Made by a program: the position numbers and the translations under genes | NCBI GenBank assembly: GCA_947073495.1 | Contig: CAMTMX010000001.1 | Coordinates: 38,812 to 102,811, forward strand | Origin: an uncultured Porphyromonadaceae bacterium | GTDB taxonomy: Bacteria; Bacteroidota; Bacteroidia; Bacteroidales; Muribaculaceae | Direction: 5' to 3' | Length of the DNA stretch: 64,000 nucleotides | Shown: positions 35,089 to 56,420 of the stretch, piece after piece | Layout: each line of letters begins with the position of its first letter | How positions within the stretch are numbered: the stretch's first letter is position 1 | The notes under the pieces: generated by a model | Database searches by the model: none | Seen by the model: the letters and a program-made list of their open reading frames with translations, nothing else | Told to the model about the DNA's origin: nothing

Positions 35089-35124
35089 ATACGCACAACT
35101 TTCGCTTCCGGAAGTTGTGCGTAT
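35089..35124. terminator. Long hairpin between convergent genes (possible bidirectional terminator; core resembles the palindrome family)
   Basis: CATACGCACAACTT-tcgcttccgg-AAGTTGTGCGTATG, 14-bp stem. Confidence 0.55.
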
Positions 35125-35154
35125 GACACACCCCAATATTATAAAATCATATCA

Positions 35155-36678
35155 TTATCTCAATTTCTTACCCCATACCGATCTTCCATTTGAGTCGAGA
35201 CCTGTAAACAATATGGTGTCGGTCTCTCTTTCCCAGTCATGGCCCGCATGGAGAATCAGGTCAGTGATTATTTCTCCATTTATAGTGACATTGAGTAACT
35301 GACCTTTTTCATCAAGTTCCCATTTATCTTTCACTGTGCCCTTTCCGGAAATGGTTTCACCGTATGTGACATTATCCAACTTTAATGTGCCGTCACAGGA
35401 AAAAGACACGGAAAAAGAATCGTTCCACTCCCCTTTCTTCAAATCTCCTTCTCCCCATAAAATCTGACCCGCCTCAAGCCGGCGTTCCGCACGAGGTTCG
35501 GATACTCTTATAAATTCCCATTCCCCCTGCAAGTCTGAGGAAGAAAATTTCTTTGGATTCACTCCGGCGTATCTTTCGGGAGAAACGACCGGCCATCCGG
35601 ATGGAGTCATGAACACTTGTCTCAGATGAAGCACCATTAACCCTGAATCTTTAGCATACCTTCCCTGATGTGCCATGAAATAATTACCTTCCCCGTCGTC
35701 AAACACGCCACAATGAGCAGTCCCTACCCACCCGGAATGATTCTCAAATCTATAGGGTGCCGTCAGGATCGGGAAATTGTTGGTGGTGTCGCTCACTACA
35801 TTCCCTTTGAAATCGTAGAACGGACCCTCGGCACTCTCGGCACGCGCAACACGCACGTTGTAAGTGGTCATCAGGGGTTCGTAGCTTTGGAAAAGATAAT
35901 ACTTTCCGGTTGTCTCATGCCGGATTATCTCGGGAGCTTCCAGATTGTCTTTTCTCCAGTTTGCACGACGCGCCACGAGATGCCCCTGATCACCTGCTTT
36001 CATGACGAGTCCGGTCGCGGGATTCAGTTCCACACAATACAATCCTCCGAAATAAGATCCGTAATGCATCCATTGTTTCCCGTTTTCATCGGTAATTACA
36101 GAAGGGTCTATTGCGTTCATTTTAGAACTTTTGTCAGTGCGTACCACCGCACCTTTCTGAATCCAGGGACCTTCAGGAGAAGCCGCTTCTGCCATACCGA
36201 TATAAGAAGTGTTCATTCCGAATGCCGATACACAATAATACAGACGGAAATTGCCGTCGCCGCAGTCTACCATATAAGGAGCCCATATATTGGTGGCTCC
36301 TTTGCCGTCAGCTTTCTCTTTGACCCAAGCAACCGCCTCTGCAGGGATCTCCGGGAATACCCATCCGAGAAATTCCCAGTTGACGAGATCTTTCGATCTC
36401 CGCATCTGGATATATCCTAACGGAACATTTTTCTCCCGAGCCGCCTTGCGGTTTTCACGGTAGATGGCGTCAGTGGAATACATATAATAATAATCGCCCA
36501 CCTTTCGGCAAGCCGGATCGTGGACATTATATGTGCCCCAGTCTTTCCAGTTTTCCATCCCGGAGAGGTGGGTGTAGTCATCAGTCCAGGGGTTCGGTCT
36601 TGAAACCGGCGTGAAACCTTCCGACAGCATGGGAAGCGCAAAGAATGCCGCAAGACATATAGATGTAAAGAATTTCAT
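35155..36678 (-). CDS. Glycoside hydrolase family 43-like enzyme
   Basis: WGTYNVHDPACRKVGDYYYMYSTDA, MNAIDPSVITDENGKQWMHYGSYFGG, NLEAPEIIRHETTGKYYLFQSYE. Confidence 0.88.
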   Translation of the reverse strand: MKFFTSICLAAFFALPMLSEGFTPVSRPNPWTDDYTHLSGMENWKDWGTYNVHDPACRKVGDYYYMYSTDAIYRENRKAAREKNVPLGYIQMRRSKDLVNWEFLGWVFPEIPAEAVAWVKEKADGKGATNIWAPYMVDCGDGNFRLYYCVSAFGMNTSYIGMAEAASPEGPWIQKGAVVRTDKSSKMNAIDPSVITDENGKQWMHYGSYFGGLYCVELNPATGLVMKAGDQGHLVARRANWRKDNLEAPEIIRHETTGKYYLFQSYEPLMTTYNVRVARAESAEGPFYDFKGNVVSDTTNNFPILTAPYRFENHSGWVGTAHCGVFDDGEGNYFMAHQGRYAKDSGLMVLHLRQVFMTPSGWPVVSPERYAGVNPKKFSSSDLQGEWEFIRVSEPRAERRLEAGQILWGEGDLKKGEWNDSFSVSFSCDGTLKLDNVTYGETISGKGTVKDKWELDEKGQLLNVTINGEIITDLILHAGHDWERETDTILFTGLDSNGRSVWGKKLR

Positions 36679-36818
36679 GAAGATAATAGATTTGTTATGT
36701 AGATTGATAAATTCTCTTTATTGGGAAATACTCCCATCAGTTCCATTTGCAAAATTATCTAATCGCATCCTTAATGAGGTGTAATATTCAATCTTATTTG
36801 ACTGAAAGGGAGGTGTAG

Positions 36819-36845
36819 GGTGGATTTTTGAATAGAAAAGGTGGA
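36819..36845 (-). promoter_or_regulatory. Predicted HTCS operator upstream of the GH43 gene
   Basis: Minus strand TCCACCTTTTCTATTCAAAAATCCACC: TCCACC repeats at a 21-bp period; -7-like TAAGATTG 22 bp downstream (36789-36796, minus). Confidence 0.55.
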
Positions 36846-36977
36846 AAAAATAAGTTATGAGGGTGAAAATGTATAAAATGGTCAAAAAATGTTATAAATT
36901 TGTACATCTAAAAAGGGACTTTACTCCCGAATGCTTTCATAGCGACTGACATATTCACTGACCTTACTGAATCGTGC

Positions 36978-39900
36978 ATGAAACTCAACCGACTCATAAC
37001 TTTACTGGCAATCTCTTTGGCGTGGCTGTTTTCAAAAGCGGCATATCCACAAACCATATCCCTGATAAATACGTTTCCCGAAAACTATTCCGTCAGCTTC
37101 ATCACGATGCAGGAAGGATTGTCGCACAATTTTGTGGAAGACATCTTCCGTGACAGTAAGGGATATATGTGGATTGCCACATCCAGTTCCTTGTCACGTT
37201 ATGACGGCTATGAATTTGTGAATTTCACACCAAATTCTATTTCCAGACATATAAAAAGCACGTTTGTACGCAAAGTTGCGGAAGACAAGTTCGGGCGCCT
37301 GTGGGTTGCCAGCGACGGCGGTGTCGACATAATCAACCTTAATGACCTTAGCCCCGTAGATCTCTCCGCCGACAAGACCTTTAAGGAAATAGCCATGACG
37401 CCTGCTTTCTATATCACTTCGGATAAGGATTCAAATATATGGCTCAGAAACAGTAAAGATGTGGTCTGCGTTCAATTTGATGATAACGGAAATATACGCG
37501 ATATAGCGACTCTTCCTCACCAAACCACCGCCACAATCACATTGGGAGCCATCGAGTCATTGCCGGGGATAGACAAGGGGGTGTTGACAGGTGTTGCCGG
37601 GAATATATGTCTGCTGACTATTGAAGCCGGCAAAATAAATTCGAAGCCATTGTCTCCCGCCCTGTCGCTCGACCCTTCGAACTATATAGCAGATTTCATA
37701 CAGGCGGGCAATCATATATGGATAGCCACGGATGCCGGTCTTTATTGTTACGACATCTCTTCTCAGAATGTGAAGGTTTATAACGGAGGAGACGGAAAGC
37801 CGGGAAGTCTTTCCCAGACATTTGTCACGTCTTTGGAATTGACGGGCAACGGAGAGCTTATCGCGGGATGTCTTAACGGCATCAATATCTATGACCCTGC
37901 AACAGACGGGTTTTATCCGGTATCGGCATCCGACATCGACGGCAGACCCCATGGTCTTAACAATGATTTCATAAACTGTCTTATTGCCGAGGGGGATAAT
38001 CTTTGGGTAGGGACCGAGGGGTGTGGAATCAATTTATTTTCTCCCCGCAAACTCTATTCAAAGATGTTGCGTCATGATTCTTCCAATCCAGAATCCCTTT
38101 CGCCGCACCCGGTCAATGCAATTTTTGAGGATGGCGACGGGACCTTATGGGTCGGGACAGTTGAAGGGGGATTGAACAAAGGCATGAGCGGATATGACAA
38201 CGGGTTCATGCATTTCACGTCTGCCAACGGAGCCCTCCCCCATAATTCTGTCAGTGCCATCACTGCCGACCATACGGGACACTTATGGGTCGGGACATGG
38301 GGAGGGGGATTGTGTATGCTCGACAAGAGTAATCCCACCAAGACCTTACGGCTTCTCAATAAGGTAGAGGATGGAAGACGTCTGGAATATATAGGAGCAT
38401 TGGCGTATGATCCATATAACAACCTTATATGGATAGGGGCTAATTTTGGAATATTCATATACGACATCACAACCGACAAACTGTCGGTCCCGTTTAAGGA
38501 TGCAGACATTATCAGGGGAAGCGTTTCCATGGTCTTGGCTCCCGACGGCAGACTCTGGATAGGCGGTCTTGAAGGCGTTTTGGCTGTCAATCTCAAGAGA
38601 AGTGTGCGGAGTGGAGATTTTGAATTTGTGCATTACCCCAATAAACTTGATAATCCTGACTCTTCTGTCAATGAGAAGGTGACTTGTATAGCCCTTGCCC
38701 ATGACGGCACGATATGGGTGGGGACAAACGGGAATGGAATATACTGTTTTGACGGGGATGTAGCCTCCGGCAGGTTTGTAAACTACAATTCGTCTGACGG
38801 ATTGCCCAACGATGTGGTTCATGGCATAGCCGAAGATCCACATGGAAACCTCTGGATCGCTACATATCATGGGTTATCCTGTATGACGGCAACAGGAAAT
38901 TTTATTAATTTCGGACTAAACAACGGTCTGGATACAGAGCAGTTTTATTGGAATGCCTATCGCCGTCTTGCCAACGGTGATATCCTTTTCGGCAGTGTTG
39001 ACGGAATGTTGGCGATCAAGGGTCTTTCCGCCTCGGGACTTACACCGTATCCTGTTCATTTCACTTTTCTGACTGTAGACAATGACAAGACTTATGGAAA
39101 TCCGGTCTCTGCCAGCATACCTGAGAATGACCGTTCGTTTGAGATCGGTTTTTCGTCGTTCGATTATGCCGGCGAATCAAACGGCAGGTATCTTTATCGG
39201 ATGGTGGGATATGAGGAGGAATGGAAAGAGTTGGCAGCCGGCAGACATAGCGTAGCTTATATGAATCTATCCCCCGGAGACTACAGGCTTGAAGTCAAAT
39301 ATGTGGGACATGGACAATCTGCCGATTCGGCGCCGGTTTCAAGTTTTGAAATAGAGATAGTGCCCCATTTTTATAAGAGATGGTGGTTTATAATTCTTGT
39401 TGCCGCCGCCCTCTTGGTAAGTGTGCTTGCCGTATATAAATGGAGAATAAAAGACTTGACCCGTCAGCGCAACGAACTCAAGAAGGCTGTCGACGAGAGT
39501 GTCAAAGAGATTACAGAACAGAAATCGCTTCTCGAAGTGCATGCGCATGAATTGAGTGAGCAAAATATAGAATTGAAGCTGCGCAACGAGCAGATAAGCG
39601 AGCAGAAGAGTCAGCTTTCCGAAATGGCGGGGAAGGTGCAACAGCTCACCGCCGACCGTATTTCATTCTTTACAAATATCACACATGAATTCCGCACGCC
39701 GATCACATTAATTATCGGTCCGATAGAGCGTGCCTTGAAACTTAGCACCAATCCCAAGGTGATAGAACAGTTGAATTTTGTGGAGCGTAATTCACGCTAT
39801 CTCCTGTCGCTTATCAATCAGTTGATGGATTTCCGCAAGATAGAGTCCGGAAAAATGGAGAAAGTGACAGTAAAAGGTAATATCCGCACATTGATCGACG

Positions 39901-41207
39901 AGATCATCCTCCCCTTCCGTGCATACGCCGAGGAAAGGGGGATAGAGATACGCGCCATGTATCATCTTTCCACTCCGGTGTTTAATTTCAATGAAGACGC
40001 CATACGGAAAGTGCTTACCAATCTTTTGGGGAATGCAATCAAGTTCACTCCCGATAATGGAAAGGTTTCTGTCTATGCGTCGATCTTCAGGAATGAAAAA
40101 TGTGGAGACGGCAATATCTTTTATCTTTGTGTAAGCGACACGGGATGCGGACTGAAAGAAGACGAGACGGATAAGGTGTTTGATCATTTCTATCAGGGAC
40201 AAAGCCAGATAAAATATCCGCTAATCGGGGCAGCCGACAGCGGAATAGGGCTATATCTGTGCCGTAGGCTTGTGGAGGTGTATGGCGGCACAATCAACGC
40301 ACGCAACAACCATGGCACGGGGTGCTCGTTTAGAGTGCTTATGCGGGTGGATGGAGCAGAGATAGAAAATTTACCAGCAGGTGGCTCATTGCTGTTGCCG
40401 GCGGCTTCACATGAAGAAAACCAGTCAGACCGCCGTCAGACCGTGCTTGTGGTGGAAGACAATCCCGATATGAGGGGCTTCATGCGATCTGTGCTTGGAG
40501 ACCATTATAGTGTGGAAGAGGCGGGGAACGGGGAGGAGGCGCTTCTCCTTCTTGAAAAGAAAGACGTGGATTTCATTATCAGCGACCTTATGATGCCGGT
40601 GATGGATGGTCTTGAACTTGCGGGTAAAGTGAAGGAAAATTTTGCAATATCCCACATCCCGTTCATCATGCTTACAGCAAAGACTTCGCAGGAATCAAGG
40701 ATGGAGGGGTATCGCAAAGGAGTAGACGACTATATATTAAAGCCGTTTGACGAAGAAATGTTGCTTACAAGAATAAACAATATCCTTGCCAACAAGCGCC
40801 GTTATCAGCGGAAATTTGTGTCAGACATGCAGGTCGATCATCTTGAAATAAAAGAGGAGAGCCGCGACAAAAAGTTTGTCAATAAGGTGATGGAGGTTTT
40901 GAAGGATAATTATACCAATTCATATTACGAGGTTGGAGAGTTTGCGGATGCTCTCGGCGTTAGCAGGAGTCTTCTCAACAAGAAACTCCAGAGCCTTATG
41001 GGACAAGGGGCAAACCAGCTGATGCGCATGTATCGTCTTAAGGTGGCGCATGAATTGATCATGCAAAATCAGGGAACGAAGAATATGAACGTATCGGAAG
41101 TTGCATTTCAAGTAGGGTTTAACGATTCAAAATATTTTACCCGCTGTTTCACCAAACAATACGGAGTGAATCCGAGTGTATTGCTTAAAGGGGCGCCCAA
41201 TAATTAA
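36978..41207 (+). CDS. Hybrid two-component system regulator (HTCS): periplasmic propeller, histidine kinase, receiver, AraC-type HTH
   Basis: WIATSSSLSRYDGYEF propeller repeats, FFTNITHEFRTPITLI (HisKA), VLVVEDNPDMRGFM...ISDLMMPVMDGLEL (receiver), C-terminal VSEVAFQVGFNDSKYFTRCFTKQYGVNPS. Confidence 0.96.
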   Translation: MKLNRLITLLAISLAWLFSKAAYPQTISLINTFPENYSVSFITMQEGLSHNFVEDIFRDSKGYMWIATSSSLSRYDGYEFVNFTPNSISRHIKSTFVRKVAEDKFGRLWVASDGGVDIINLNDLSPVDLSADKTFKEIAMTPAFYITSDKDSNIWLRNSKDVVCVQFDDNGNIRDIATLPHQTTATITLGAIESLPGIDKGVLTGVAGNICLLTIEAGKINSKPLSPALSLDPSNYIADFIQAGNHIWIATDAGLYCYDISSQNVKVYNGGDGKPGSLSQTFVTSLELTGNGELIAGCLNGINIYDPATDGFYPVSASDIDGRPHGLNNDFINCLIAEGDNLWVGTEGCGINLFSPRKLYSKMLRHDSSNPESLSPHPVNAIFEDGDGTLWVGTVEGGLNKGMSGYDNGFMHFTSANGALPHNSVSAITADHTGHLWVGTWGGGLCMLDKSNPTKTLRLLNKVEDGRRLEYIGALAYDPYNNLIWIGANFGIFIYDITTDKLSVPFKDADIIRGSVSMVLAPDGRLWIGGLEGVLAVNLKRSVRSGDFEFVHYPNKLDNPDSSVNEKVTCIALAHDGTIWVGTNGNGIYCFDGDVASGRFVNYNSSDGLPNDVVHGIAEDPHGNLWIATYHGLSCMTATGNFINFGLNNGLDTEQFYWNAYRRLANGDILFGSVDGMLAIKGLSASGLTPYPVHFTFLTVDNDKTYGNPVSASIPENDRSFEIGFSSFDYAGESNGRYLYRMVGYEEEWKELAAGRHSVAYMNLSPGDYRLEVKYVGHGQSADSAPVSSFEIEIVPHFYKRWWFIILVAAALLVSVLAVYKWRIKDLTRQRNELKKAVDESVKEITEQKSLLEVHAHELSEQNIELKLRNEQISEQKSQLSEMAGKVQQLTADRISFFTNITHEFRTPITLIIGPIERALKLSTNPKVIEQLNFVERNSRYLLSLINQLMDFRKIESGKMEKVTVKGNIRTLIDEIILPFRAYAEERGIEIRAMYHLSTPVFNFNEDAIRKVLTNLLGNAIKFTPDNGKVSVYASIFRNEKCGDGNIFYLCVSDTGCGLKEDETDKVFDHFYQGQSQIKYPLIGAADSGIGLYLCRRLVEVYGGTINARNNHGTGCSFRVLMRVDGAEIENLPAGGSLLLPAASHEENQSDRRQTVLVVEDNPDMRGFMRSVLGDHYSVEEAGNGEEALLLLEKKDVDFIISDLMMPVMDGLELAGKVKENFAISHIPFIMLTAKTSQESRMEGYRKGVDDYILKPFDEEMLLTRINNILANKRRYQRKFVSDMQVDHLEIKEESRDKKFVNKVMEVLKDNYTNSYYEVGEFADALGVSRSLLNKKLQSLMGQGANQLMRMYRLKVAHELIMQNQGTKNMNVSEVAFQVGFNDSKYFTRCFTKQYGVNPSVLLKGAPNN

Positions 41208-41247: not shown

Positions 41248-41278
41248 TTGTCCACCACCTTTACTCAATTGTCCACCA
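41248..41278 (+). promoter_or_regulatory. Predicted HTCS operator upstream of the first PUL operon
   Basis: TTGTCCACCA at 41248-41257 and 41269-41278, 21-bp period. Confidence 0.65.
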
Positions 41279-41298: not shown

Positions 41299-41306
41299 TA
41301 ATTTTG
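41299..41306 (+). promoter_or_regulatory. -7 promoter element TAATTTTG of the PUL operon
   Basis: Matches TAnnTTTG; no good -33 element, its place is taken by the direct repeat. Confidence 0.6.
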
Positions 41307-41384: not shown

Positions 41385-43214
41385 ATGAAGACAGAGAAAT
41401 GGATGCCAGCGGCAGCCCTTGCTGTTCTACTGACCACGATGACATCTTGCGAAGACTGGGGACAACAGGACCCGCCTGCAGGAAATCAGGTTTATCCAAC
41501 CCTGGAAAACGTGGCGGCTTTTGATTTTGATGCGGATGAGGGACTGGATCTTGCCATGTTCACCCCAGTCGCGAATCCCGGCGGGAGCACTCCCCAGATT
41601 ATTGAAGACGAAATCAAGGGGAAAGTGCTTGAACTTAACAACGGACATGTGTTTTTATCCAACCCGTTTTCGAAGACGACACTTCAGAAGGCGGCTTCTT
41701 TCACATTCTGGATGAAACAGCCGGTGCAGACCGTCACCGACACAGATGGAAATGAGGTGAATGAGCCTCAGGATCTGTCTGCAACTCTATTGATGTTTGA
41801 AAACGAGACCGGCAACGGAACTCTTTCAATCAATGCCAACGGAGGAATCAAATATTCGGCGGCAGACGGGGAATGGACCGAAAACGATCCTTCTTCGGTA
41901 ACTACCGGCTACATGACTCCCGGTGACTGGCATTATGTAGCTGTCGTTCTCAATAATGACGGCTATGAATGGTATGTTGACGGTGACAGAAAGGTAAGCA
42001 AGACTGTCACAGAATTCGATTGCTCGAAACTTGTGAAGTTTGCCAACAATGTGCCCACGATGATTATCGGCGGCACAGAAAATTCATCGCTGTTGCTTGT
42101 GGATGATCTGAAAATCTATCGCAACGCCTTGACGGAAAAAGAGATCGCTCGTCCTAATCTTGGAGGTGGTGAAGGTCCTTCCGGTCCGGATTTAAGCACC
42201 TGGACTCTTGTCGGGCTTGAAGACAACACCACAGGATTCTGGAGCATGTGGGCGGATTACGTAAACCTTACCGGAGACGGCACCGTACATTATGATTTCT
42301 ACAACTATCATGGCGGAAAGAATGATAACTGGTGCAACTGGGGACTTGTGCTCACCAACGGTCCGGAGCGTGGAGCCGACGGTTATGCGGAATATCTCTA
42401 CCTGCGCGCAGACGCCTACGGATGGGGCAACAACTATAACGGCGACAATATCACCCATGATTTCGATTGGGGTACCTTCATGTCGGAAATGGACGGAGCG
42501 TTTGTGTCTCTTGATATTACGAGGAAAGGGACAGATGTGACGGTGACAGCTCTTGTTACTGCCGAAAACGGCACCGAAAGACACTATTCTATCCGTGTTG
42601 AGGGTGTAGACAGCGAAGTGCTTGGCACATTCCTTACATGCGAGGGTTCACACCTGCTTATCAATCCGCAGACAGTATTCGTGGGTCAGACATATACCGC
42701 CGGGCAATATGTCACCGGACAGACTGACTGCAGCACAGGATGGTGGTCGGCACATTCACCCAACAACCGTTTCGACGGCAATTTCAAGAACTGGGGAGTA
42801 GAATTTGTGAACCATACGACAGGTGCAGGTGCCAACTGGAACAACTGGCTCCTCGTATGTTCCAATGGCCCATGGGTAGGAGAAGCAGGTTATGCCGAGA
42901 ACTTTGTGCTCCGTTCTGATGCCTACGGCTGGGGCGCAAGCTTCGATGGTGGCAACACTACAATGGAACAGGCTTTTGATTGGGAAACTTATGTGGCCGA
43001 CATGAAAGATGCCAATGTAAAGATTCTCTTCTCATACTCGGCAGGGACTCTTGACATGTATTGCACCCAGACCACTGCCGACGGCAGGGAGATGCCCCCT
43101 TATAAATTCTCGGCAAGTTCACTGACAGCCCCTATAGGACTTTTCTTCACATGCGAGCTGGCATGGCTTGAGTTCAGCAAGGTGGGATATTATCCCTGGG
43201 CGACTATGGAATAA
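41385..43214 (+). CDS. LamG/concanavalin-like lipoprotein of the PUL (surface glycan-binding candidate)
   Basis: Lipobox TTMTSCED; VLELNNGHVFLSNPFSKTTLQKAASFTFWMK, YVAVVLNNDGYEWYVDG; two similar C-terminal domains. Confidence 0.65.
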   Translation: MKTEKWMPAAALAVLLTTMTSCEDWGQQDPPAGNQVYPTLENVAAFDFDADEGLDLAMFTPVANPGGSTPQIIEDEIKGKVLELNNGHVFLSNPFSKTTLQKAASFTFWMKQPVQTVTDTDGNEVNEPQDLSATLLMFENETGNGTLSINANGGIKYSAADGEWTENDPSSVTTGYMTPGDWHYVAVVLNNDGYEWYVDGDRKVSKTVTEFDCSKLVKFANNVPTMIIGGTENSSLLLVDDLKIYRNALTEKEIARPNLGGGEGPSGPDLSTWTLVGLEDNTTGFWSMWADYVNLTGDGTVHYDFYNYHGGKNDNWCNWGLVLTNGPERGADGYAEYLYLRADAYGWGNNYNGDNITHDFDWGTFMSEMDGAFVSLDITRKGTDVTVTALVTAENGTERHYSIRVEGVDSEVLGTFLTCEGSHLLINPQTVFVGQTYTAGQYVTGQTDCSTGWWSAHSPNNRFDGNFKNWGVEFVNHTTGAGANWNNWLLVCSNGPWVGEAGYAENFVLRSDAYGWGASFDGGNTTMEQAFDWETYVADMKDANVKILFSYSAGTLDMYCTQTTADGREMPPYKFSASSLTAPIGLFFTCELAWLEFSKVGYYPWATME

Positions 43215-43245
43215 TAAGTAACTTAAAATCTAACCATACATCATA

Positions 43246-46200
43246 ATGGATAAAAAAGGAATAACAGCCGAAGGACGGCGGGGCAATATGCTCCTCCTCC
43301 TCCTCCCGGTTCTCCTTCTGATGCTTGCCGTATTCCCGGCGGGCGCGGAAATTGTGAAAGGAGTGGTCAGCGACGCTTCAGGAGAACCTCTTATTGGCGC
43401 TACAGTCATAGAAAAAGGAACAACCAACGGCACAGCTACCGATATCGACGGTTTCTTCCAGTTAAATCTGAAAGACGCCAAGAAAGGTGTGCTTGTGGTG
43501 TCATACGTTGGTTATGCCACCCAGGAGGTGGAAGTGAAAGGACAGACAGATCTACAGATCACTCTCCAGGAGGAATCTTCTCTTCTTAACGAAGTAGTGG
43601 TGGTAGGTTATGGTCAGCAAAAGAAAGAGTCGGTGGTGGGAGCAATCTCCCAGGTCAATTCCGGCGATCTTCTGGAGACTCCCTCCGCCAACCTTTCCCA
43701 GGCGATCACCGGCAAGATTCCCGGTGTGATCACTTCTCAGACTTCGGGTGCGCCCGGTGCGGACGACGCCTCGATCTACATCCGCGGACGTGCAACATTC
43801 GCAGGTGACGCCCAGCCTCTTATCCTTGTTGACGGCGTTGAGCGTTCTTTCTCCCAGATCGCGCCAGACGATATCGAGACAATCTCTGTGCTTAAGGATG
43901 CTTCGGCAACTGCCGTATATGGCGTGCGAGGTGCGAACGGCGTTATGCTTATCACCACAAAACGAGGTAAGGAACAAAAACCGATCGTGAACCTTACCGC
44001 CTCATGGCAGTTCTAGACCCCTACCCGCAAGAATACGTATCTGAACTCATATGAGTCGGTCTCCCTTCTTGAGGAGGCTCTTGCCAACGACGGTCTTCCC
44101 TCTCAGTATTCCTCGTATGACCTCGACATGTATCAAAAATCAGTCAACGGTCAGTTGAGCGGAGTTGAGGCTCTCCTTTACCCCAACGTAGACTGGTATG
44201 ACGAGATTCTGCGCTCTTCCGCCCCCTCGCAGCGCTACAACGCAAGTGTACGCGGCGGAACAAAGAGAATGCGTTACTACGCTTCTTTAGAATATTACGA
44301 TCAGGAATCTCTTTTCAAGAATCTTTCAAAAGACCCTTACGGCAACTCCACATCTTTGAATTATAAAAGATATGGTTTCCGTGCGAACGCCGATTTCTTC
44401 CTGACAAAAGATCTTCAGTTGTCAGTGAATTTCGGAACCCGTTTCGAGGAACGCCGAGGCCCTAACTCAGACGAAAGAGACGACGGTTCATACAGTAATG
44501 TATTCTATCAGCTGAACCATACGCCGGGATGGCTTTTCCCCGTGGCATACGAGGTGCAGAACGGAGAGACAACCAAGACTCTCTACGGAGGAAGCTCACA
44601 ATATCAGAGCAATGTCTATGCCACTCTTGCCGAATCGGGATACTACAAGGGAGTCAATACTGTCAACGAAACGAACTTTATTGCAGACTACAAGATGGAT
44701 TGGCTAACCCCGGGACTTTCGGCACGAGGGATGGTGAGCTTCGACTATGAAAATTATCATAAGACCACCTACAGCAAGTCTTTTGCCACATACGAGCTTA
44801 ACGACCGTGACAACTACCAGAGCATTGACGCCTATAACCGGTTTAATACCGATGGCACAATGACGAGCAGAAAAACCAGCTTCACTGTCTATAAGCTTTA
44901 TATGGAGGCTCAGTTGAACTATGCACGTAAGTTCGCAGATCTCCATGACGTGACAGCCATGGTGCTTTATATGCAGAACGACTATCGCTACCAGAGCGAC
45001 CTCGCCAAACGTTATCAAGGTGTGGTAGGGCGTGTCACATATGCATACGACGACCGCTATCTTTTCGAGTTCAATGCCGGATACAACGGTTCCGAGAACT
45101 TTATGAAAGGTAAACGTTTCGGTTTCTTCCCCGCATTCTCGGCAGGTTGGCGAATCACTCAGGAGAAATTTATGGAAAATTCCACCGATTGGCTCAACAA
45201 CCTTAAACTGCGCGCATCATACGGTCAGGTAGGTAATGATGTATATCAGGTCGGGGGTGTGCAGCAGCGATTCCTTTATGAGCAGAAATGGAGTCAGATC
45301 GCAAACGATTACTACTTTGGCACATCCGGTCAGACAGGTATTTTTGAAGAACAGTATCCTAACTATGGGGTGACCTGGGAACGTGCCCATAAATACAATG
45401 TGGGTCTTGAATTCGGGCTGTTCAACAATTCGCTTAGCGGTAATATCGATTTCTTCTGGGAAAAGCGCAACAATATTCTTACGGAATATCTCACACGTCC
45501 ATGGTGGTTTGGTGTGACATCTGCAGCCGGAAACCTTGGTAAGACTGAAAACAAGGGTTTTGAAATCGAACTTCATTACAGCAACAAAATCGGAAACGAT
45601 TTCAAATATAACATAGGGGGAACCTACTCTCACGCGAAGAACAAGATCACAGAGATGGACGAACCTGCCAACAAAACGGACTACCGCAAGCGTACAGGCC
45701 ATGCAATCGGTCAGTATTTCGGGCTTGTGGCAGACGGATTCGTGACTCAGGCTGACATCGATGGCGGAAATCTGCCCACATCTACATTCGGCACCGTGAA
45801 GCCCGGCGATCTCAAATATCGCGACATGAACGGCGACGGATTTATTGACGACCGCGACGAGACATTTATAGGATATTCCGATATTCCGGAAAACACATAC
45901 GCCATCACTCTCGGCGCGGAATGGAAAGGTATCGGATTCAGCATCATGTTCCAAGGTGTGGATCACGTGAGCCGCTATTATGATGCGGAAGCGATGTATG
46001 CCTTTGTCAACGGCGGCAAGGTGAAAGAACATCATCTTGACCGTTGGAACCCTGCACTTTCAGAATCGGAGAATCTCGCGAATGCCAAATATCCCCTCCT
46101 TCACTACGACAGCTATGGCGACCATAACCAGCGGACCAACTCCTTCTTCCTGAAGAACGGTTCATTCTTCCGTCTGAAGAATATCGAACTCTCCTATTCC

Positions 46201-46374
46201 CTCCCGGAAAAATGGATCAAACACGCTTACATGAGCCAGTGCCGTTTCTTCGTAAACGCCAACAACCTCGTGACATGGGATCATCTTAACGGGCTGACCG
46301 ACCCTGAGAGCAACGGGTCGAACCGCTATCCTATCTGCAAGACTGTCAACTTTGGTGTCAACATCCAATTCTAA
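43246..46374 (+). pseudogene. SusC/RagA TonB-linked outer-membrane protein interrupted by one in-frame TAG at 44014-44016
   Basis: ORFs 43246-44016 and 44128-46374 are in the same frame (offset 882 nt = 294 codons); translation continues as SWQF*TPTRKNTYLNSYESVSLLEEAL with no other stop. Confidence 0.85.
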
Positions 46375-46386
46375 TCTGATATCGAA

Positions 46387-48156
46387 ATGAAAAAATCATA
46401 TAAATTCTTAGCGTTGGCTTTCATGCTCAGTGGTGTCTCCGCGTTGACTTCGTGTGGAGACTTCCTCGACAAGCAGCCGTCTAACGAGCTTACAGAAGAT
46501 AAGACTCTCGGCAGCTGGAGCATGTTTGAATATTTCCACAACGATACATATAATTTTATTCGTCATGGCGCCAACCGTATAAATGGCTCATGGCTGGATG
46601 CCGCCACGGATCTTGCCGAGACGTCGTTCGCTACCGGAGGCGCCCGCACAACCTTTAATATAGGCAACTATTACGGAGGCGGAGGCACCTCGGAATTCAA
46701 TGACACATGGGAATCACGTTATCGTGCCATCCGCAAATGCAACAGGGTGATCAATCAGATGGATCTCGTGCCTAAAGATATCACAAAAACCGAAGAGCAG
46801 GAGTTGCGCGACCGTGCCATAATGCGTGCGGAGGCTCGCACATTCCGCGCATATTTCTATTGGGAGTTGTTTCTCCGTTTCGGTCCGCTGCCTATTGTGA
46901 CAGAGGTGCTCGATCCGGACGAAGATATGATCTCCCCCTATTCAAAGCGTCCTTCTGTGAGGGAATATGTGGTTGATTTCATTCTTAAAGAGTTGGAAGA
47001 ATCAGAGCCGGACCTGCTTTCATATACAGATGCCTGGAGCGCCAACAGAATCGGAAGGCTTTCCCAGCCAATGGCCCGGGCTCTTGCCTCACGAATTAAA
47101 CTCTATATGGCTTCTCCGAGATATGCCGCCGAAAGCGGAGTGACCTGGCAGGATGCCGCTGATGCCGCCAACAGTTTCATTCAGGACTTCGGCGCCAATT
47201 TCGGTCTGTTTTCTGAAGCAAATATCGACCCTGCCGAGAATTATGCCAATGCAGTGCTCCGCACACAATATACCGGTAATAACAACGAGGTCATCTTTTT
47301 CCGTAACGATGTGGCTATCGGATGGGCTAATATATCTCAGGATACTCCTGTAGGAGAAGGCGGGAGCGGAGGAAACTGTCCCTCTCAGAATCTTGTGGAT
47401 ATGTATGACATGATCGACGGCTCGTCTCCATTCGCGCAGTATGACGCCACCGGCGCGCCGGTTTATCCTTCAGGCTCACTGGTGCCGGCAATCAATGAGG
47501 AAAGCGGATATAGCGATGCGGAGATGTGGGAGAACCGCGATCCTCGTTTGAGGGCTACAGTGCTTTATCAAGGCACTCCTTGGGGAACAACGCGCGACAA
47601 CAGTACAATCGACGTACGTCCCGGAATGGCAGACAATCCAACCGGCAATGCCAATGCAACTCCGACAGGCTATTATATGCGCAAATATATCCCCGCTTCT
47701 ATCCTTAGCTCGAACCATAGCGGATCTGCCTACCGCCTTTGGACCGTCATCCGATATGCGGAGATCCTTATGAACTATGCGGAGGCTATGAACGAGGTCA
47801 ACGGTCCCTGCCAACAGGTTTTTGATATGCTTGACCAGGTGCGCCATCGCGCCGGTATAACCGGAAGCGTAGCCGATCGTCAGGACCTTTCGAGCAAGGA
47901 AGCCATGCGTAATTTCATTCACAAGGAGCGCACGGTGGAATTCGCTTTTGAAGAGCACCGTTCTTGGGATGTACGCCGCTGGAATGTGGCTGTCGAGGCT
48001 CTCAGCCGTCCGATCTATGGAGTGAATGTCGCTATGGACGGCACAGTGACCCGCAAGAAAGCTCAGGATCGTGTGTTTGAAGAGCGTATGTATCTCTATC
48101 CAATACCAGAGGGAGAGATCTGGAAGACAAATCTGGAAAACAATCCGGGATGGTAA
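46387..48156 (+). CDS. SusD/RagB-family nutrient-binding lipoprotein
   Basis: Lipobox ALTSCGDFLDKQPSNELTED; IRYAEILMNYAEAMNE; HKERTVEFAFEEHRSWDVRRW. Confidence 0.95.
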   Translation: MKKSYKFLALAFMLSGVSALTSCGDFLDKQPSNELTEDKTLGSWSMFEYFHNDTYNFIRHGANRINGSWLDAATDLAETSFATGGARTTFNIGNYYGGGGTSEFNDTWESRYRAIRKCNRVINQMDLVPKDITKTEEQELRDRAIMRAEARTFRAYFYWELFLRFGPLPIVTEVLDPDEDMISPYSKRPSVREYVVDFILKELEESEPDLLSYTDAWSANRIGRLSQPMARALASRIKLYMASPRYAAESGVTWQDAADAANSFIQDFGANFGLFSEANIDPAENYANAVLRTQYTGNNNEVIFFRNDVAIGWANISQDTPVGEGGSGGNCPSQNLVDMYDMIDGSSPFAQYDATGAPVYPSGSLVPAINEESGYSDAEMWENRDPRLRATVLYQGTPWGTTRDNSTIDVRPGMADNPTGNANATPTGYYMRKYIPASILSSNHSGSAYRLWTVIRYAEILMNYAEAMNEVNGPCQQVFDMLDQVRHRAGITGSVADRQDLSSKEAMRNFIHKERTVEFAFEEHRSWDVRRWNVAVEALSRPIYGVNVAMDGTVTRKKAQDRVFEERMYLYPIPEGEIWKTNLENNPGW

Positions 48157-48213
48157 TAAAGTTGTTAAGACAGCTTTAATCCTTAAAAATGAAACAGAAA
48201 AATTCGAACATAT

Positions 48214-51200
48214 ATGAACCACATCATAAATCATATAAGGAACAAGGTAAAACCCGCTTTCACGGCAGCTGTCATCACCGGCTGGTCTGTAGCGGCGTTT
48301 GCCGCCCCTACAGGAAATATCCTCAAAGGTCGTGTAGTCGATCCTGAAGGGAATCCTATCCCGGGGGCTGTGGTGAATCTTGCCGAGCAAAGCAAAGTCG
48401 TGTTCACCAACGAAAACGGAGAGTTCTCTATTAAAGACGCCAACTATGACGATGAGGTCAACGCCACCTGCACGGGCTACCTTACATCAATAATTCCTGT
48501 TGAGGATTTCAGTGCGCCGATCGAGATCGTGTTGCAGCCGGACACTGATCCTTATGCGCATCTTGCGCCGGTGGCTTTCGGGGAACAGCAGAAAAAATTG
48601 CTTACCGATTCCCGTTCAGTAGTGACCGGCGAGGAGCTTCAGCGTTATCCCGTCACTGTGCTTCAGAATGCCTTCAACTCCCTTTTGACAGGCGTGGAGA
48701 CATATGAGGTGTCTTCAGAACCTGGCTGGTCTGAGACTAAAATGTATGTGCGCGGTATCCGCACCCTTAACTCAAATGCACGCAACCCTCTGGTCATAGT
48801 CGATAATGTGGAGCGAGACCTCTCCTTCCTCGACGCTTTCCCTATTGAATCCGTGACAGTGCTGAAGGATGCTGCCGCCACTGCACTTTATGGCATGCGA
48901 GGAGCGAATGGCGTCATCCTGGTGACCACTAAACGAGGCGAGGCGGGAAAGACGCACATCAATTTCACTCAGGAGGTAGGTTTCCAGACTCTCACTGGCA
49001 AAGTGGAAAACCAGAATTCCTATAATCTTGCGTTGACAAAGAATCAGGTGCGTTATCTTGATGGAAAAGACCCAATCTATTCCCCGGAACAGATTGAGAA
49101 ATATCGTCGCGTATGTTCCGGAGAGACCCTTGATGGTATGGACCGTTACCGTTATTTCAATACCAATTGGTTTGATGAGCTTTATCGCGAGACAGCCCCT
49201 GTGGTCAAGACCAACCTCCAGATTTCGGGAGGCAACAACCGCGCGCGATACTATGTGTCGTTCTCATATCTACGTCAGGAAGGTATGTGGAACTCTAAAG
49301 GCACGAGTTTTAATGATCGTTTTTCGACACAACATGTTCTCAACCGTTGGAACCTGCGTTCCAACCTTGACATTAATGTCAACAAATATCTCCGTGTAGG
49401 TCTTGACCTCGGCGGACGTATTGATAATATTCTTCAACCCACCACCAGGGTGTTTGACCTTACTACCTTCGGCGCCGTGGAAGCGGATCCCATGCGTCCG
49501 GTCTATTGCCCGAACGGCGAACTGTATGTGGACGGAAGCGCCAACAACCCTACATTTCAACTTGGGTCGTCAGGTCAGGAGAAGAACCGCAGACGCCAGC
49601 TTTATTCAACTGTCGATGTGACAGGAATACTTGATCCGATCACCAAAGGTCTGGAAGCAAATCTTGTTGTCAGCTTTGATGCATTCGATGTGTTCCAGTC
49701 GACTCAGACAAACCGTGTCAACTCATATTCTTATGATTTCACAAATATGGCGGTGGAGAATGTGGATGACTTCACCTATACTCAGACCAACCGTTATTCT
49801 GAATTGACTAATCCTTCCGCTAACGAACGCGCCAATTCCTGGACCCTCAACACCCGGTTCGGGTTCAAGTATGACCGTGAATTCGGAGATCACCGAGTAC
49901 AGGCAAACGCTTTCATCCGTGCCTATCAGCAACGTCTCAATGTGAAGGAGGCGAATACCGACAATTCGATGTATTCATCCGACCGTTATCTTTCCTACAA
50001 CGGATCGCTTGCATATATCTACGGCGGACGTTATATCGTGTCTGGAAATATCTCCCGTATGGGTAATGACAACTTCGCCCCCGGCGACCAATGGGGCACA
50101 TTCTGGGGAGCATCTCTCGGTTGGGTGCTTTCGGAAGAAAAATTCCTGAGGAATCCGAATATCGATCTTCTGAAATTCCGTGCCTCCTATGGTAAGTCGG
50201 GTATGAGCGACACAGGCGCAGGACGCTATCCCTATCAGTCTACTTTTGCAACTTCAGGAGGTTACAGTTTCGGACACAATGCCACACTTGTGCCGGGATT
50301 TATAGAAAGTGTAGCCGGCAATCCTAACAGCAAATGGGAGATTTCGAAGATGCTCAACCTTGGACTTGACTGGGACTTCTGGCATCACCGCCTCTATGGT
50401 TCGTTTGATGTCTTCAAGGAATGGCGTAGCGACATCCTCATAGAACGCTCCACAAACCCCGATATCCTCGGTATCACTTTCGCCCGCGATTCATATGGCA
50501 AGGTGGAGAGCCGTGGTCTTGAACTGACAATCGGTCATTCAAACAAGATCGGCAACGTAACCTACACGGTGGAAGGTATGCTTTCATGGAACAAGAACAA
50601 GATTATAGAGATGGATGAGATCGCGCCCTCTGTAGAATGGCAGCGCAAGACAGGAGACCGCATCCGTGATTATGCTTCCGTGGCTTCTATCTACGAATGG
50701 GAAAACAGGGACGTTGTCGGCGGTTGGAACGCTTACCGCTTCAACGGCTGGGCTTCAGATCCCGCACTCATCTCGACTTCACAGGCTGACGCTATCGCGC
50801 ACCCCGAGAAATATCCTTACAACACATTTTCGGGAGGAGGCCAGAAACTCGGCACGGCGGTGTTCCGCGATCTTAACGGAGACCGTCAGATCGACTCACG
50901 CGACATGGAACCCTACGGATATACCCTTATCCCTGATCTCACGCCCTCTATCTCGATTTATGCCGCCTACAAGGGATTCGACCTGAAAGTGATAGGCACC
51001 GCATATCTGAACCGCTCAGTGTTCCTTTCCCCTTCAATGACATTCTCCGAATGGGGTAACAACAATGCCACTCACGAGGTTACGAAAGCATGGGGCTACT
51101 ACACGGACGATCCTATGGATCCGCGTAATATCAATGCAAAATATCCGCGTCTGAGCTATACCTATAACACAGAAGATTCTTCACGTGACAACGGTTCTTA

Positions 51201-51447
51201 TCAGAACGATATATGGATCATGAACGGTGATTATTTCTCACTCCGGAACATAGAGTTCGGCTATTCTCTCCCGACAAGCCTTATCTCCAAAATCCACATG
51301 AGCCAATGCCGCTTCTATTTCAGCGCATACAACATTGCCAACTGGAGCCACATGCCTGAGGGTATGGATCCGGAGAAGCCGATGTCTTATTGCTGGTGGT
51401 ATCCTAAAACCCGCACGTTTAATTTCGGTCTTCACATTGAATTCTAA
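48214..51447 (+). CDS. SusC/RagA TonB-linked outer-membrane protein
   Basis: [60 protein letters not shown], C-terminal [20 protein letters not shown]. Confidence 0.96.
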   Translation: [1077 protein letters not shown]

Positions 51448-51531
51448 ATTATGATAATGGTTTCAGATCTATGACTCGTCGGATATCGACGGGCATAGAC
51501 TGAAAACCGGATCAACAAAATCAAGATTATC

Positions 51532-53310
51532 ATGAACTCCAAAATATTATCAATAGCGGCTGTGGGTCTCCTCTCCCTGGGGGCGGCTTCCTGCAGCGAT
51601 TATCTCGACAAGGAGGTCGACCTAACCCTTCAGGCAGAGAATGTCTTTTCAGACTATGACCGTACGCGAGGCTATCTCGCCCAGCTCTACGATTATCTTC
51701 CCGATGCTTTTCAAGGTTATAACGATACTCAATATCGACTCTCACAAGATTGCATGACCGATAATGCAGTAGATTACTGGGGTGTGGCAAGATACCATTC
51801 CGTCATGGCTGATGCCTATGACGCCACCAACCATTGGTTTGCCGATTTTTATTGGTCAAGAGATTACTCCGGTATCCGTGGAGTCAACCAGTATCTCCTC
51901 AATGCACGTCCGGATGTTGTTGGAAATGCAGAAAAAACGGGCGATGACAGCCGCCTTTACGACCGATGGGATGCCGAAGCGAGAATATTGCGTGCCATTC
52001 TTCATTTTGACCTGCTATGCTGGTATGGCGATATCCCCATTGTGGCGGATGATGAAAACGGCACTCCGATAATCCTTGCGCCGTCTACCCCTCTACCCAA
52101 ACGCACGGCTGCTGCCGATGTCCTTAAATGGATTGCGGATGAATGTGACAAATATAAGGACAATCTCCCCTTCCGCTACAGTGATGAAACAGAGAACTGG
52201 GGCAGAATAAACGGTGCAGCCGCATACGCACTCAAAACACGCGCGCTTCTTTTCCGCGCATCTCCCCTCTTCAACCCCGGGAACGACGTTTCACGCTGGA
52301 CGGAAGCCGCAAATGCCGCAAAGGATTTCATAGCCAAGAACAGGATGCAAAGCAATCCCTATAGGCTTTATACAACCGACAGTAATGATCCCTCGCAGAA
52401 CTATTATCAGTGTTTTATTTCAAACCCTGTGCTCAACAACGAGTATATTCTGAGCCGTTCTGTCTGGACCACTCTTCAGATAGAGTTTTTCAATGCCCCC
52501 TGCGGCTTCACCGGCTCTATCAGCGCGACAGGTTATCTCAACCCGACACAGAATCTTGTGGATGCATACGAGACAATCAATGGTCTTCCGATTGATCAAG
52601 ATCCGTCGTATGATGCCCAAAATCCATATGTAAACCGTGACCCGCGTCTTGAGCAGACCATTCTCCACCATGGTTCCATATGGGGCGACGGCGATGAGGC
52701 GCGTCCGATAGACGTAAACAACGACGACACCCGTACCGGAGCGGATTATGCACGTGGCAACGGAGGAACCGCCACCGGTTATTATTCTAAAAAGTATCTT
52801 CACAACATCCGCTGGGACGGCACTGTGGGCAATCAGCGCCATGCGTGTCCGATTTTCCGCTACGCCGAGATACTCCTTGCCGCTGCGGAAGCGCTCAATG
52901 AGTCGGGACAGACCGGAGAGGCATACGACTATGTCAATCAGGTGCGTGCACGTGTAGGTATGCCTGCTTATTCAGGAATGAGCCAGGAGCAGTTGCGTGA
53001 GCGCATACAGAATGAAATTAGAATTGAATTCTGTTTTGAAGACCACAGGTATTTCGACATGCGTCGTTGGAAATTGTTTGAAAAGAATGGCGGCAGTGCG
53101 TCTGCCGAGGCGTCTCTTCCTCGCTATCGCCAGGTGTTCACACTTTACGGTGTTGCTGTAAGGGAAGGCTCTTCCCAGACTTTCAACTATGGTCTGAGCG
53201 ATATTGATTCTCACTATTCGTTTACAGCCCCGAAGAATTATTTCTTCCCGATTCCTTATGATGAGCTTCAAAAGACGGGATATCCTCAGACGCCCGGCTG
53301 GGAGCTTTAA
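51532..53310 (+). CDS. SusD/RagB-family nutrient-binding lipoprotein
   Basis: Lipobox GAASCSDYLDKEVDL; FRYAEILLAAAEALNESG; NEIRIEFCFEDHRYFDMRRW. Confidence 0.95.
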   Translation: MNSKILSIAAVGLLSLGAASCSDYLDKEVDLTLQAENVFSDYDRTRGYLAQLYDYLPDAFQGYNDTQYRLSQDCMTDNAVDYWGVARYHSVMADAYDATNHWFADFYWSRDYSGIRGVNQYLLNARPDVVGNAEKTGDDSRLYDRWDAEARILRAILHFDLLCWYGDIPIVADDENGTPIILAPSTPLPKRTAAADVLKWIADECDKYKDNLPFRYSDETENWGRINGAAAYALKTRALLFRASPLFNPGNDVSRWTEAANAAKDFIAKNRMQSNPYRLYTTDSNDPSQNYYQCFISNPVLNNEYILSRSVWTTLQIEFFNAPCGFTGSISATGYLNPTQNLVDAYETINGLPIDQDPSYDAQNPYVNRDPRLEQTILHHGSIWGDGDEARPIDVNNDDTRTGADYARGNGGTATGYYSKKYLHNIRWDGTVGNQRHACPIFRYAEILLAAAEALNESGQTGEAYDYVNQVRARVGMPAYSGMSQEQLRERIQNEIRIEFCFEDHRYFDMRRWKLFEKNGGSASAEASLPRYRQVFTLYGVAVREGSSQTFNYGLSDIDSHYSFTAPKNYFFPIPYDELQKTGYPQTPGWEL

Positions 53311-53346
53311 TTCAATTATTAATTGATAATTAGTAATTTGATATTT

Positions 53347-55251
53347 ATGAAATTAACTAAATATTTATCTATCGCGTTTGCTGCAGGTCTCCTTTTTATG
53401 GGGGCTTGTAGCGATGACGATAATGTGAATTATCCCGAAGGTCAAGGGATAGTACTGGAGACTCCTCATGCAGTTGACTGTGGCGGCAGCTATGCCTCGT
53501 TTGCGACTATCTTCCACATGAAAAACGACGCCCACTACACAAAGGCAGGTTATGTGATCTCGGAAACTCCGAACCCTACAATATATGGCAGCGTGTATGA
53601 TGCCACAATAAGCGGAGACACGATCAAGGCAACTATCGTTGACCTCGCGCCGGGCCGCGAATATCATGTGAGGGCGTTTGTCAATGAATATAAAGGTGAC
53701 GTGATTTATTCTTCCGATTTCGTTTTTAAAACAGGGGAAGGCTCTCTCCAGGAGCAACTCGATCATTATCGCGGACCATCCTATCCTGATTATTATGTGG
53801 ATATTGCAGGGTGGGGAAACCGCAGCCAATGGAACCTTGCCAATGTGCACGACCCCTCGGTTGTGAAAGCGGCAGACGGTTACTATTATATGTATCAGAC
53901 TGATGCTTCATACGGTAACGCCCATGTGGAAGGGGGACATTTCCATGGCCGCCGCTCAATAGACCTTGTAAATTGGGAGTATCTCGGCGGCACGATGCAG
54001 GCTCTCCCTGAATGGGTTGTGCCTAAGCTCAACGAAATCCGCGAAGGTATGGGACTCGCAGCCGTTACTCCCGATGTGAACGCTTTCGGATACTGGGCTC
54101 CGAGTGTGGTTAAGGTCAACGACAACCTCTATCGCATGTATTATTCCATTGTTGTGCCCGGTCTTATAGACGGAGATAATTCATGGGGTGAGCGTGCTTT
54201 CATCGGCATGATGGAAAACTCTGATCCCGCCAATAATGAAGGTTGGGAAGACAAGGGTTATGTGATCACAAATGCATCTGACAAGGGTCTTGACTTCAAT
54301 GTGGCACCCAACGACTGGGGTAACTGCTACTATAAGTATAATGCAATCGACCCGTCGGTCATCATCACTGAAAACGGTGAGCACTGGATGATCTATGGCT
54401 CCTGGAACAGCGGTATCGCAGCAGTGAAGTTGAATCCCGAGACCGGCAAGGTGGCGGCAGAACTGGGCAATCCCTGGGGCACTGACGCGGAAATAGCTCC
54501 TTATGGCAAATTGATCGCCACCCGTCAGATGGGCAACCGCTGGCAGGCTTCAGAGGGTCCGGAGGTGATTTATCGTGACGGTTATTATTATCTCTTCCTT
54601 GCATATGACGCTCTCGAGGTTGCCTACAATACCAGAGTGGCGCGCAGCCGTAACATTGAAGGCCCGTATGTGGATATCAACGGCACAAACATCACCGACA
54701 ATGGCGGGGACGCGCTTCCGGTTGTGACGCATCCGTATATGTTTGCCAATTCGCAGGGATGGGTAGGTTTCTCCCATTGCACAGTGTTTAATGACGGGGA
54801 TGGAAACTGGTTTTATGCATCGCAGGCACGTTTCCCCTCCGGTGTCAACGGTAATGACGCGAGCAATGCCCTTATGATGGGTCATGTGCGTTCCATCGTA
54901 TGGACTAAAGACGGCTGGCCTCTTGTAATGCCCGAGCGCTACGGCGCTGTTCCGCAGCTCCCGATAACAGAGGAAGAGCTTGTTGGCAGTTGGGAAATTA
55001 TAGATATGGCATATTCCTATGCACAGATGAAGGAATCGTCCAATAGCGTGCTTACAGCCGATCATTTGGTAAGCGGCGGAGTATGGGACGGAGAAGCGTG
55101 GAATTACGATGCACAGAGCCAGATTTTAAAAGTTGGAGACGTTGAGCTTTATCTCAAGCGTGAATGCGACTGGGAGAATTCCGAACGCCGTGCCACAATC
55201 GTTTGCGCCGGCATTTCCAACACTACCTGGTGGGGTAAAAAATCGATATAA
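53347..55251 (+). CDS. GH43-like lipoprotein with N-terminal FN3-like region
   Basis: Lipobox LFMGACSDDD; LAPGREYHVRAFVNEYKG; NLANVHDPSVVKAADGYYYMYQTDA, YNAIDPSVIITENGEHWMIYGSW. ATG used instead of the ORF-track TTG. Confidence 0.87.
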   Translation: MKLTKYLSIAFAAGLLFMGACSDDDNVNYPEGQGIVLETPHAVDCGGSYASFATIFHMKNDAHYTKAGYVISETPNPTIYGSVYDATISGDTIKATIVDLAPGREYHVRAFVNEYKGDVIYSSDFVFKTGEGSLQEQLDHYRGPSYPDYYVDIAGWGNRSQWNLANVHDPSVVKAADGYYYMYQTDASYGNAHVEGGHFHGRRSIDLVNWEYLGGTMQALPEWVVPKLNEIREGMGLAAVTPDVNAFGYWAPSVVKVNDNLYRMYYSIVVPGLIDGDNSWGERAFIGMMENSDPANNEGWEDKGYVITNASDKGLDFNVAPNDWGNCYYKYNAIDPSVIITENGEHWMIYGSWNSGIAAVKLNPETGKVAAELGNPWGTDAEIAPYGKLIATRQMGNRWQASEGPEVIYRDGYYYLFLAYDALEVAYNTRVARSRNIEGPYVDINGTNITDNGGDALPVVTHPYMFANSQGWVGFSHCTVFNDGDGNWFYASQARFPSGVNGNDASNALMMGHVRSIVWTKDGWPLVMPERYGAVPQLPITEEELVGSWEIIDMAYSYAQMKESSNSVLTADHLVSGGVWDGEAWNYDAQSQILKVGDVELYLKRECDWENSERRATIVCAGISNTTWWGKKSI

Positions 55252-55337: not shown

Positions 55338-56420
55338 TTATTTCCAATGATTTTCAAGGGCTTCTTTTTCTGAAGCAGTAATTTGTATTATGGCTCCATG
55401 CTTGGGGGAAGTGAAGTTTGTGGTCTTCATGGGCCCCTCGTTGAAATGTCCGAGATTTTTGAAAGTCTTGAAGTCTGAGGTCTCTGCAAACCCGAAGTTA
55501 TGGGGATTGATGCTGTAGACGTCATACATCACTACATATTTGTCTTCCCCGATACGTTTCCAGACATTAGGTGCCTCACAAGCCCCCGGTTCGAAATCGA
55601 TGAAATCGGGAGCATATTCCCATCCCGAATTGATATTGTCGGAGAAAGCCATCTTTATTCCGGGAGTGCCGTCGTGAGCCACGTATGTGAGGCACCATCT
55701 TCCATCGTTCGTGCGGGATATATCCGCATCAAGAACAGCTTTGCTTGCATCCGGATATTGATAAAGGATCTTGGGTTCCGTCACGAGTTTTGTGAAATCG
55801 TCGTCCGTATAGGCATAATAAAGATTTGACGGTTGCACTCCATTCCTCATGGTGAAATATATCATCATCTTTTTCTCCACAGGATCATAGGTTGTCTCAG
55901 GTGCCCATGCACACCCGATGTTGCCGAATTTTTCAGGAAAAAGTTTGTCGATGCGGAGGTTAGAGCGTTTCCAGTTGATAAGGTCAGACGATTTCATCAA
56001 CACCAGCCCGCGGTTGTTTCCCCATCCATAGTCTTCTCCGGGGCGTTCCCATTCGGAGTCGCGCAGACCTTCCCGCTGTGCGTAAATGTGGAGGTCTGTC
56101 ATTGCGAGATAGAATGCGCCGTCGGGACCTCGCGAGATGTGTGGGTCCCGTATCCCTTTCTGTTCAGCAATTGAGTCGCCGGCAATCACCGGTTTGCCAT
56201 CGTTTACAGCGGTGAAAGTGTATCCGTCGGGACTTGTAGCCATGAAGAGGTCATGAGTCTCGTCTGTGAAAAACACCATCAGGTATGCCGACATATCTTT
56301 ATCGGCACAATTCCCGCAACATTGCTTAGTTTCCGCAGGAGGCGGAACAGGCGGTAAGGATGCCGCCATTGCCGGCAAAGAGGCACAACCTAAAATAGAC
56401 AATAAAATCGATTTATACAT
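55338..56420 (-). CDS. GH43-like five-bladed propeller glycosidase
   Basis: GIRDPHISRGPDGAFYLAMTDLH, GCAWAPETTYDPVEKKMMIYFTMR, FIDFEPGACEAPNVWKRIGEDKYVVMYDVYS. Confidence 0.78.
   Translation of the reverse strand: MYKSILLSILGCASLPAMAASLPPVPPPAETKQCCGNCADKDMSAYLMVFFTDETHDLFMATSPDGYTFTAVNDGKPVIAGDSIAEQKGIRDPHISRGPDGAFYLAMTDLHIYAQREGLRDSEWERPGEDYGWGNNRGLVLMKSSDLINWKRSNLRIDKLFPEKFGNIGCAWAPETTYDPVEKKMMIYFTMRNGVQPSNLYYAYTDDDFTKLVTEPKILYQYPDASKAVLDADISRTNDGRWCLTYVAHDGTPGIKMAFSDNINSGWEYAPDFIDFEPGACEAPNVWKRIGEDKYVVMYDVYSINPHNFGFAETSDFKTFKNLGHFNEGPMKTTNFTSPKHGAIIQITASEKEALENHWK

Follow-up and report, generated by a model that had tools for sequence, protein, structure and literature searches.

The direct repeat upstream of the GH43 arabinanase gene raises two questions: which regulator acts at this site, and which promoter or promoters does it serve. 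We analysed a 64,000-nucleotide stretch of DNA (the window) together with related loci from other species. Our reading is that the site very probably serves as operator for the adjacent hybrid two-component regulator (HTCS), a BT0366 orthologue, and that it most likely activates both the GH43 gene and the regulator gene. In the same reading, GH43 transcription would begin near 36743 from a conserved −7 box, with the participation of a promoter-proximal half-site. The features discussed below are collected in Table 1.

The regulator combines a propeller sensor with Y_Y_Y, HisKA, HATPase, receiver and AraC-type HTH domains (Pfam), and it has the HTCS architecture with an AraC-type DNA-binding domain that marks a BT0366-type regulon. 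It is flanked by a BT0367-type endo-arabinanase on one side and, on the other, by a unit with two SusCD pairs whose last gene encodes a BT0360-type endo-arabinanase scoring above the NCBIfam equivalog cut-off. This arrangement, established from NCBIfam assignments and synteny, is that of the regulon, and a direct repeat of about 21 bp lies upstream of both flanking units. Related loci keep the gene order GH43, regulator, followed in many of them by surface protein, SusC, SusD and SusC. By sequence comparison the locus is orthologous to the Bacteroides thetaiotaomicron arabinan PUL BT0360–BT0369, with the regulator corresponding to BT0366, the near GH43 to BT0367 and the far GH43 to BT0360. A preliminary description of this DNA had grouped the near GH43 gene with the PUL; its NCBIfam assignment as a BT0367 orthologue and the conserved repeat upstream of it both agree with that grouping. 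Among named genomes the best match, at 68% identity, is to a Muribaculaceae isolate, in agreement with a placement of the genome in that family. The PUL is patchily distributed in the genus, with a close regulator match in 7 of 111 genomes.

Several further features of the locus were noted. The first SusC gene (43246–46374) contains an in-frame TAG at 44014–44016 (plus strand), a position at which the frame of the close relative L011 is open and encodes Gln; this may be a real nonsense change or an assembly error. The regulator match in L131 (G367) has one internal TGA. Directly past the GH43 stop, at about 35096–35140, lies an inverted repeat (CATACGCACAACTT / AAGTTGTGCGTATG) that is likely to be a terminator, and the GH43 gene may be transcribed alone here. 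At the far end of the locus, 55338–56420 (minus strand) encodes a protein with weak GH32/GH43 similarity that adjoins the end of the SusCD-side unit.

Table 1. Genes, half-sites and promoter elements of the arabinan locus (positions in the window)
Feature	Position	Strand	Basis or status
GH43 endo-1,5-alpha-L-arabinanase, BT0367 orthologue	35155–36678	−	NCBIfam NF049888 (814 bits, cut-off 800); Pfam GH43 and GH43_C
Probable GH43 −7 box TAATTTTG, exact TAnnTTTG	36750–36757	−	Conserved in genus
TACACC, an extra promoter-proximal half-site with the conserved −7 box exactly 20 nt downstream	36778–36783	−	Half-site (TACACC, TCCACC or TCTACC) at this distance in 5 of 5 species of the genus
Candidate GH43 −7 box of the preliminary description, TAAGATTG, one mismatch to TAnnTTTG, 22 nt downstream of the repeat	36789–36796	−	Not conserved in genus
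Second half-site TCCACC of the GH43-side repeat, 21 bp from the distal one	36819–36824	−	Sequence and conservation
Distal half-site TCCACC of the GH43-side repeat	36840–36845	−	Sequence and conservation across related loci
Probable HTCS −7 box TAAATTTG, exact, 49 bp from the repeat	36895–36902	+	Conserved in genus; helically phased with the repeat
Hybrid two-component regulator (HTCS), BT0366-like	36978–41207	+	Pfam; HEFRTP, DLMMP and SHIP motifs present
SusCD-side operator TCCACC-N15-TCCACC, TCCACCACCTTTACTCAATTGTCCACC	41251–41277	+	Pattern search, sequence
SusCD-side −7 box TAATTTTG, 21 nt after the operator	41299–41306	+	Sequence
SusCD-side unit: BT0365-like surface protein, SusC (internal stop), SusD, SusC, SusD, BT0360-type GH43	41385–55251	+	

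The minus strand of 36819–36845 reads exactly TCCACCTTTTCTATTCAAAAATCCACC, that is, TCCACC-N15-TCCACC with the half-sites 21 bp apart. The GH43-side repeat is identical to the SusCD-side repeat at 19 of 27 positions and has the matching orientation with respect to its gene, so that the second operator copy reported in the preliminary description is present as claimed. The other copy is likewise real, and only its position needs correction, since it begins at 41251 and not, as had been given, 3 bases earlier at 41248. Possible third tandem half-sites at 21–22 bp (TCACCC on the minus strand upstream of 36845, and AACACC after 41277) are not conserved in the sites of other species and were dismissed.

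The 21-bp TCCACC repeat is found in the GH43 orientation within the GH43–regulator intergenic region of all 39 loci that have a divergent GH43 gene, a count that includes the window and takes identical upstream regions once, but that contains some closely related species and does not represent 39 independent events. Over the 12 half-site bases, 24 of these loci have no mismatch, 14 have one and a single locus has two; by chance, a repeat with at most one mismatch is expected at roughly 1e-4 per 250-bp region. Similar sites, oriented with the next unit, occur past the regulator gene in most of the loci for which sequence there was available. In 26 of the 27 sites of the first set, the repeat is followed, 20–22 nt on, by a TAnnTTTG box (one mismatch allowed), compared with a mean of 1.4 and a maximum of 6 after shuffling. 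Outside the window's genus, all 34 loci have such a box 20–21 nt past the GH43-side repeat. On its SusCD side the window has this usual spacing (21 nt); among the five species of the genus examined, the window included, that side has an exact −7 box at 21 nt in four and a near-consensus box in the fifth.

The GH43 side of the window departs from this spacing: the box at 22 nt has one mismatch, and the conserved −7 box stands at 61 nt. The same is seen in all five species of the genus that were examined (the window, L100, L101/L011, L131 and L132), which carry an exact −7 box 61–86 nt after the repeat. Exactly 20 nt before this consensus box, each of the five has a half-site, which reads TACACC in three cases and TCCACC and TCTACC in the other two. 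No clear 21-bp partner for the proximal half-site at 36778–36783 was seen in the window. Within the genus, the spacings between repeat and proximal half-site (41, 62, 60, 53 and 66) make an unconvincing case for helical phasing. Judged from the pattern in the outgroups, it appears to be the promoter in the window's genus that has moved, and not the promoters elsewhere. Because the repeat stands 61–86 nt from the GH43 −7 box in the genus rather than 20–21 nt, its contribution to GH43 expression could be reduced.

The GH43-side repeat sits between two divergent promoters, that of the GH43 gene on the minus strand and that of the regulator gene on the plus strand. In 37 loci, the nearest exact divergent −7 box lies at distances from the repeat that fall into clusters of 48–49, 59–61, 69–70, 79–80, 89–92 and 111–112 bp, with one exception at 41 bp. 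A Rayleigh-type test at 10.5 bp, using one value per hand-chosen clade and spacing class, gives R = 0.76 with p of about 0.001 for 10 classes and about 0.008 for 8; because the pattern was noticed before testing and such classes do not amount to a formal correction for phylogeny, the phasing is suggestive only. The helically phased distances suggest that one operator serves both divergent promoters, and the operator may also control the regulator gene itself, a role absent from the preliminary description. A broader formulation is quite possible, although we hold it tentatively: that across the Bacteroidales a single direct repeat controls two divergent promoters, at a distance of whole helical turns from the regulator's −7 box, and that in this Muribaculaceae genus the enzyme promoter moved away and gained a proximal half-site, becoming a two-operator promoter.

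These same observations could be read to mean that the main role of the repeat in this genus is at the regulator promoter, in autoregulation, and that the proximal half-site or another factor drives GH43. Four species of the genus have the HTCS −7 box 48–49 bp from the repeat and the fifth has it at 69 bp, while the GH43 −7 box has moved; the helical phasing of the repeat with the regulator's −7 box across loci points the same way. We consider this alternative unlikely, however, since the GH43 orientation of the repeat is kept, the window offers no good partner for the proximal half-site, and in B. thetaiotaomicron the GH43 gene is under strict control of the orthologue (PMC5061871).

More doubtful still is the promoter proposed in the preliminary description, in which the repeat and TAAGATTG at 36789 would together form the GH43 promoter, with a start near 36780. 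The −7-like boxes on which this proposal was built do exist, at 22 nt on the GH43 side and at 21 nt (TAATTTTG) on the other, and a one-mismatch box at 22 nt is near the 20–21 nt of the 34 outside loci. Nevertheless, the other species of the genus do not share TAAGATTG, no other site of the first set has its box at 22 nt, and in all five species the exact TAnnTTTG lies further downstream, preceded at exactly 20 nt by a half-site. The GH43 start therefore probably maps away from 36789, which would leave the conclusion about regulation unharmed.

Within the window the two sites are the only exact matches to TCCACC-N15-TCCACC, and they are two of 4 in the whole genome (3.5 Mb). With at most one mismatch the genome has 31 matches, compared with 27 for a reversed-pattern control, so the repeat taken on its own carries little weight. 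Requiring a −7-like box 18–23 nt downstream of the repeat leaves exactly two places in the genome, both at this locus, and none for the control, with the mild circularity that the box was loosened to admit TAAGATTG. A weight matrix trained solely on sites of other species, excluding the window and its relative L011, ranks the two sites first and second among all window positions, at 33.9 and 20.5 bits (the next best reaches 8.9); the GH43-side copy is clearly the weaker, with the lower score. Searching the rest of the genome with the composite pattern revealed no further regulon members, those candidate places elsewhere that were examined scored at most 13.7 bits with the matrix, and the neighbourhoods examined of other HTCS paralogues contained no strong match. 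Although the genome is no richer in TCCACC pairs, one mismatch allowed, than in the reversed pattern, the probability that the two sites resemble each other by chance is practically negligible, given that sequence, spacing, orientation and position are kept in the 39 loci and that binding has been shown experimentally for the orthologue BT0366 (PMC5061871).

How the operator would function in this organism, including its binding by a dimer, where transcription starts and what the extra half-site does, we infer from its sequence, conservation and spacing and from orthology. A periplasmic arabino-oligosaccharide would activate the regulator, whose AraC-type domain would bind as a dimer, on one face of the DNA, to TCCACC half-sites separated by two helical turns (21 bp). 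With the operator bound at 41251, the −7 box of the SusCD unit would follow 21 nt downstream. At 36819–36845 it would lie between the divergent GH43 and regulator promoters and most likely activate both, with the half-site at 36778–36783 aiding initiation at the GH43 promoter from 36750–36757.

The circuit proposed here would extend a proven Bacteroides arabinan control circuit to a gut bacterium of the Muribaculaceae. It is known biology, a known kind of operator rediscovered in another lineage, with a promoter change specific to the genus; the spacing rule and the phasing may already have been described, our search of the literature having been partial. The grammar TCCACC, 21 bp, TCCACC, 20–21 nt, TAnnTTTG would allow regulons to be predicted from sequence, and the promoter shift in this genus and the phasing with the regulator promoter are testable refinements.

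The closest known system is the HTCS_Ara-1 (BT0366) regulon of the PUL BT0360–BT0369, which the locus resembles in gene set, gene order, divergent GH43 and the 21-bp direct-repeat type of operator. In gel-shift experiments, BT0366 binds both corresponding fragments in B. thetaiotaomicron, and BT0367 is induced more than 1,500-fold on arabinan, with no activation in a BT0366 mutant (PMC5061871). BT0366 mRNA itself rises 15-fold, from which the authors infer autoregulation, and ChIP-seq with a chimera also found binding at the arabinan PUL (PMC3404733). These results, together with the conservation of the repeat across the Bacteroidales, support the earlier proposal that one regulator controls both flanking units, which for this locus we infer from sequence and orthology. 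In what would be a difference from the BT0366 regulon, the GH43-side repeat is here set apart from the consensus −7 box and accompanied by an extra proximal half-site. The locus also differs from the B. thetaiotaomicron operon, which is under dual AraR control (PMC3878776), in that a rough pattern search of the window for the AraR-type GTGT-N7-ACAC gave one-mismatch matches only, none of them near 41251. HTCS motifs in Bacteroides have been predicted to be direct repeats with an average of 21 bp between sites (PMC3878776), and the two conserved same-strand sites about 21 bp apart conform to this type. Those operators were described for Bacteroides; here they are found in Muribaculaceae and other Bacteroidales, and their fixed distance of 20–21 nt to the −7 box is counted.
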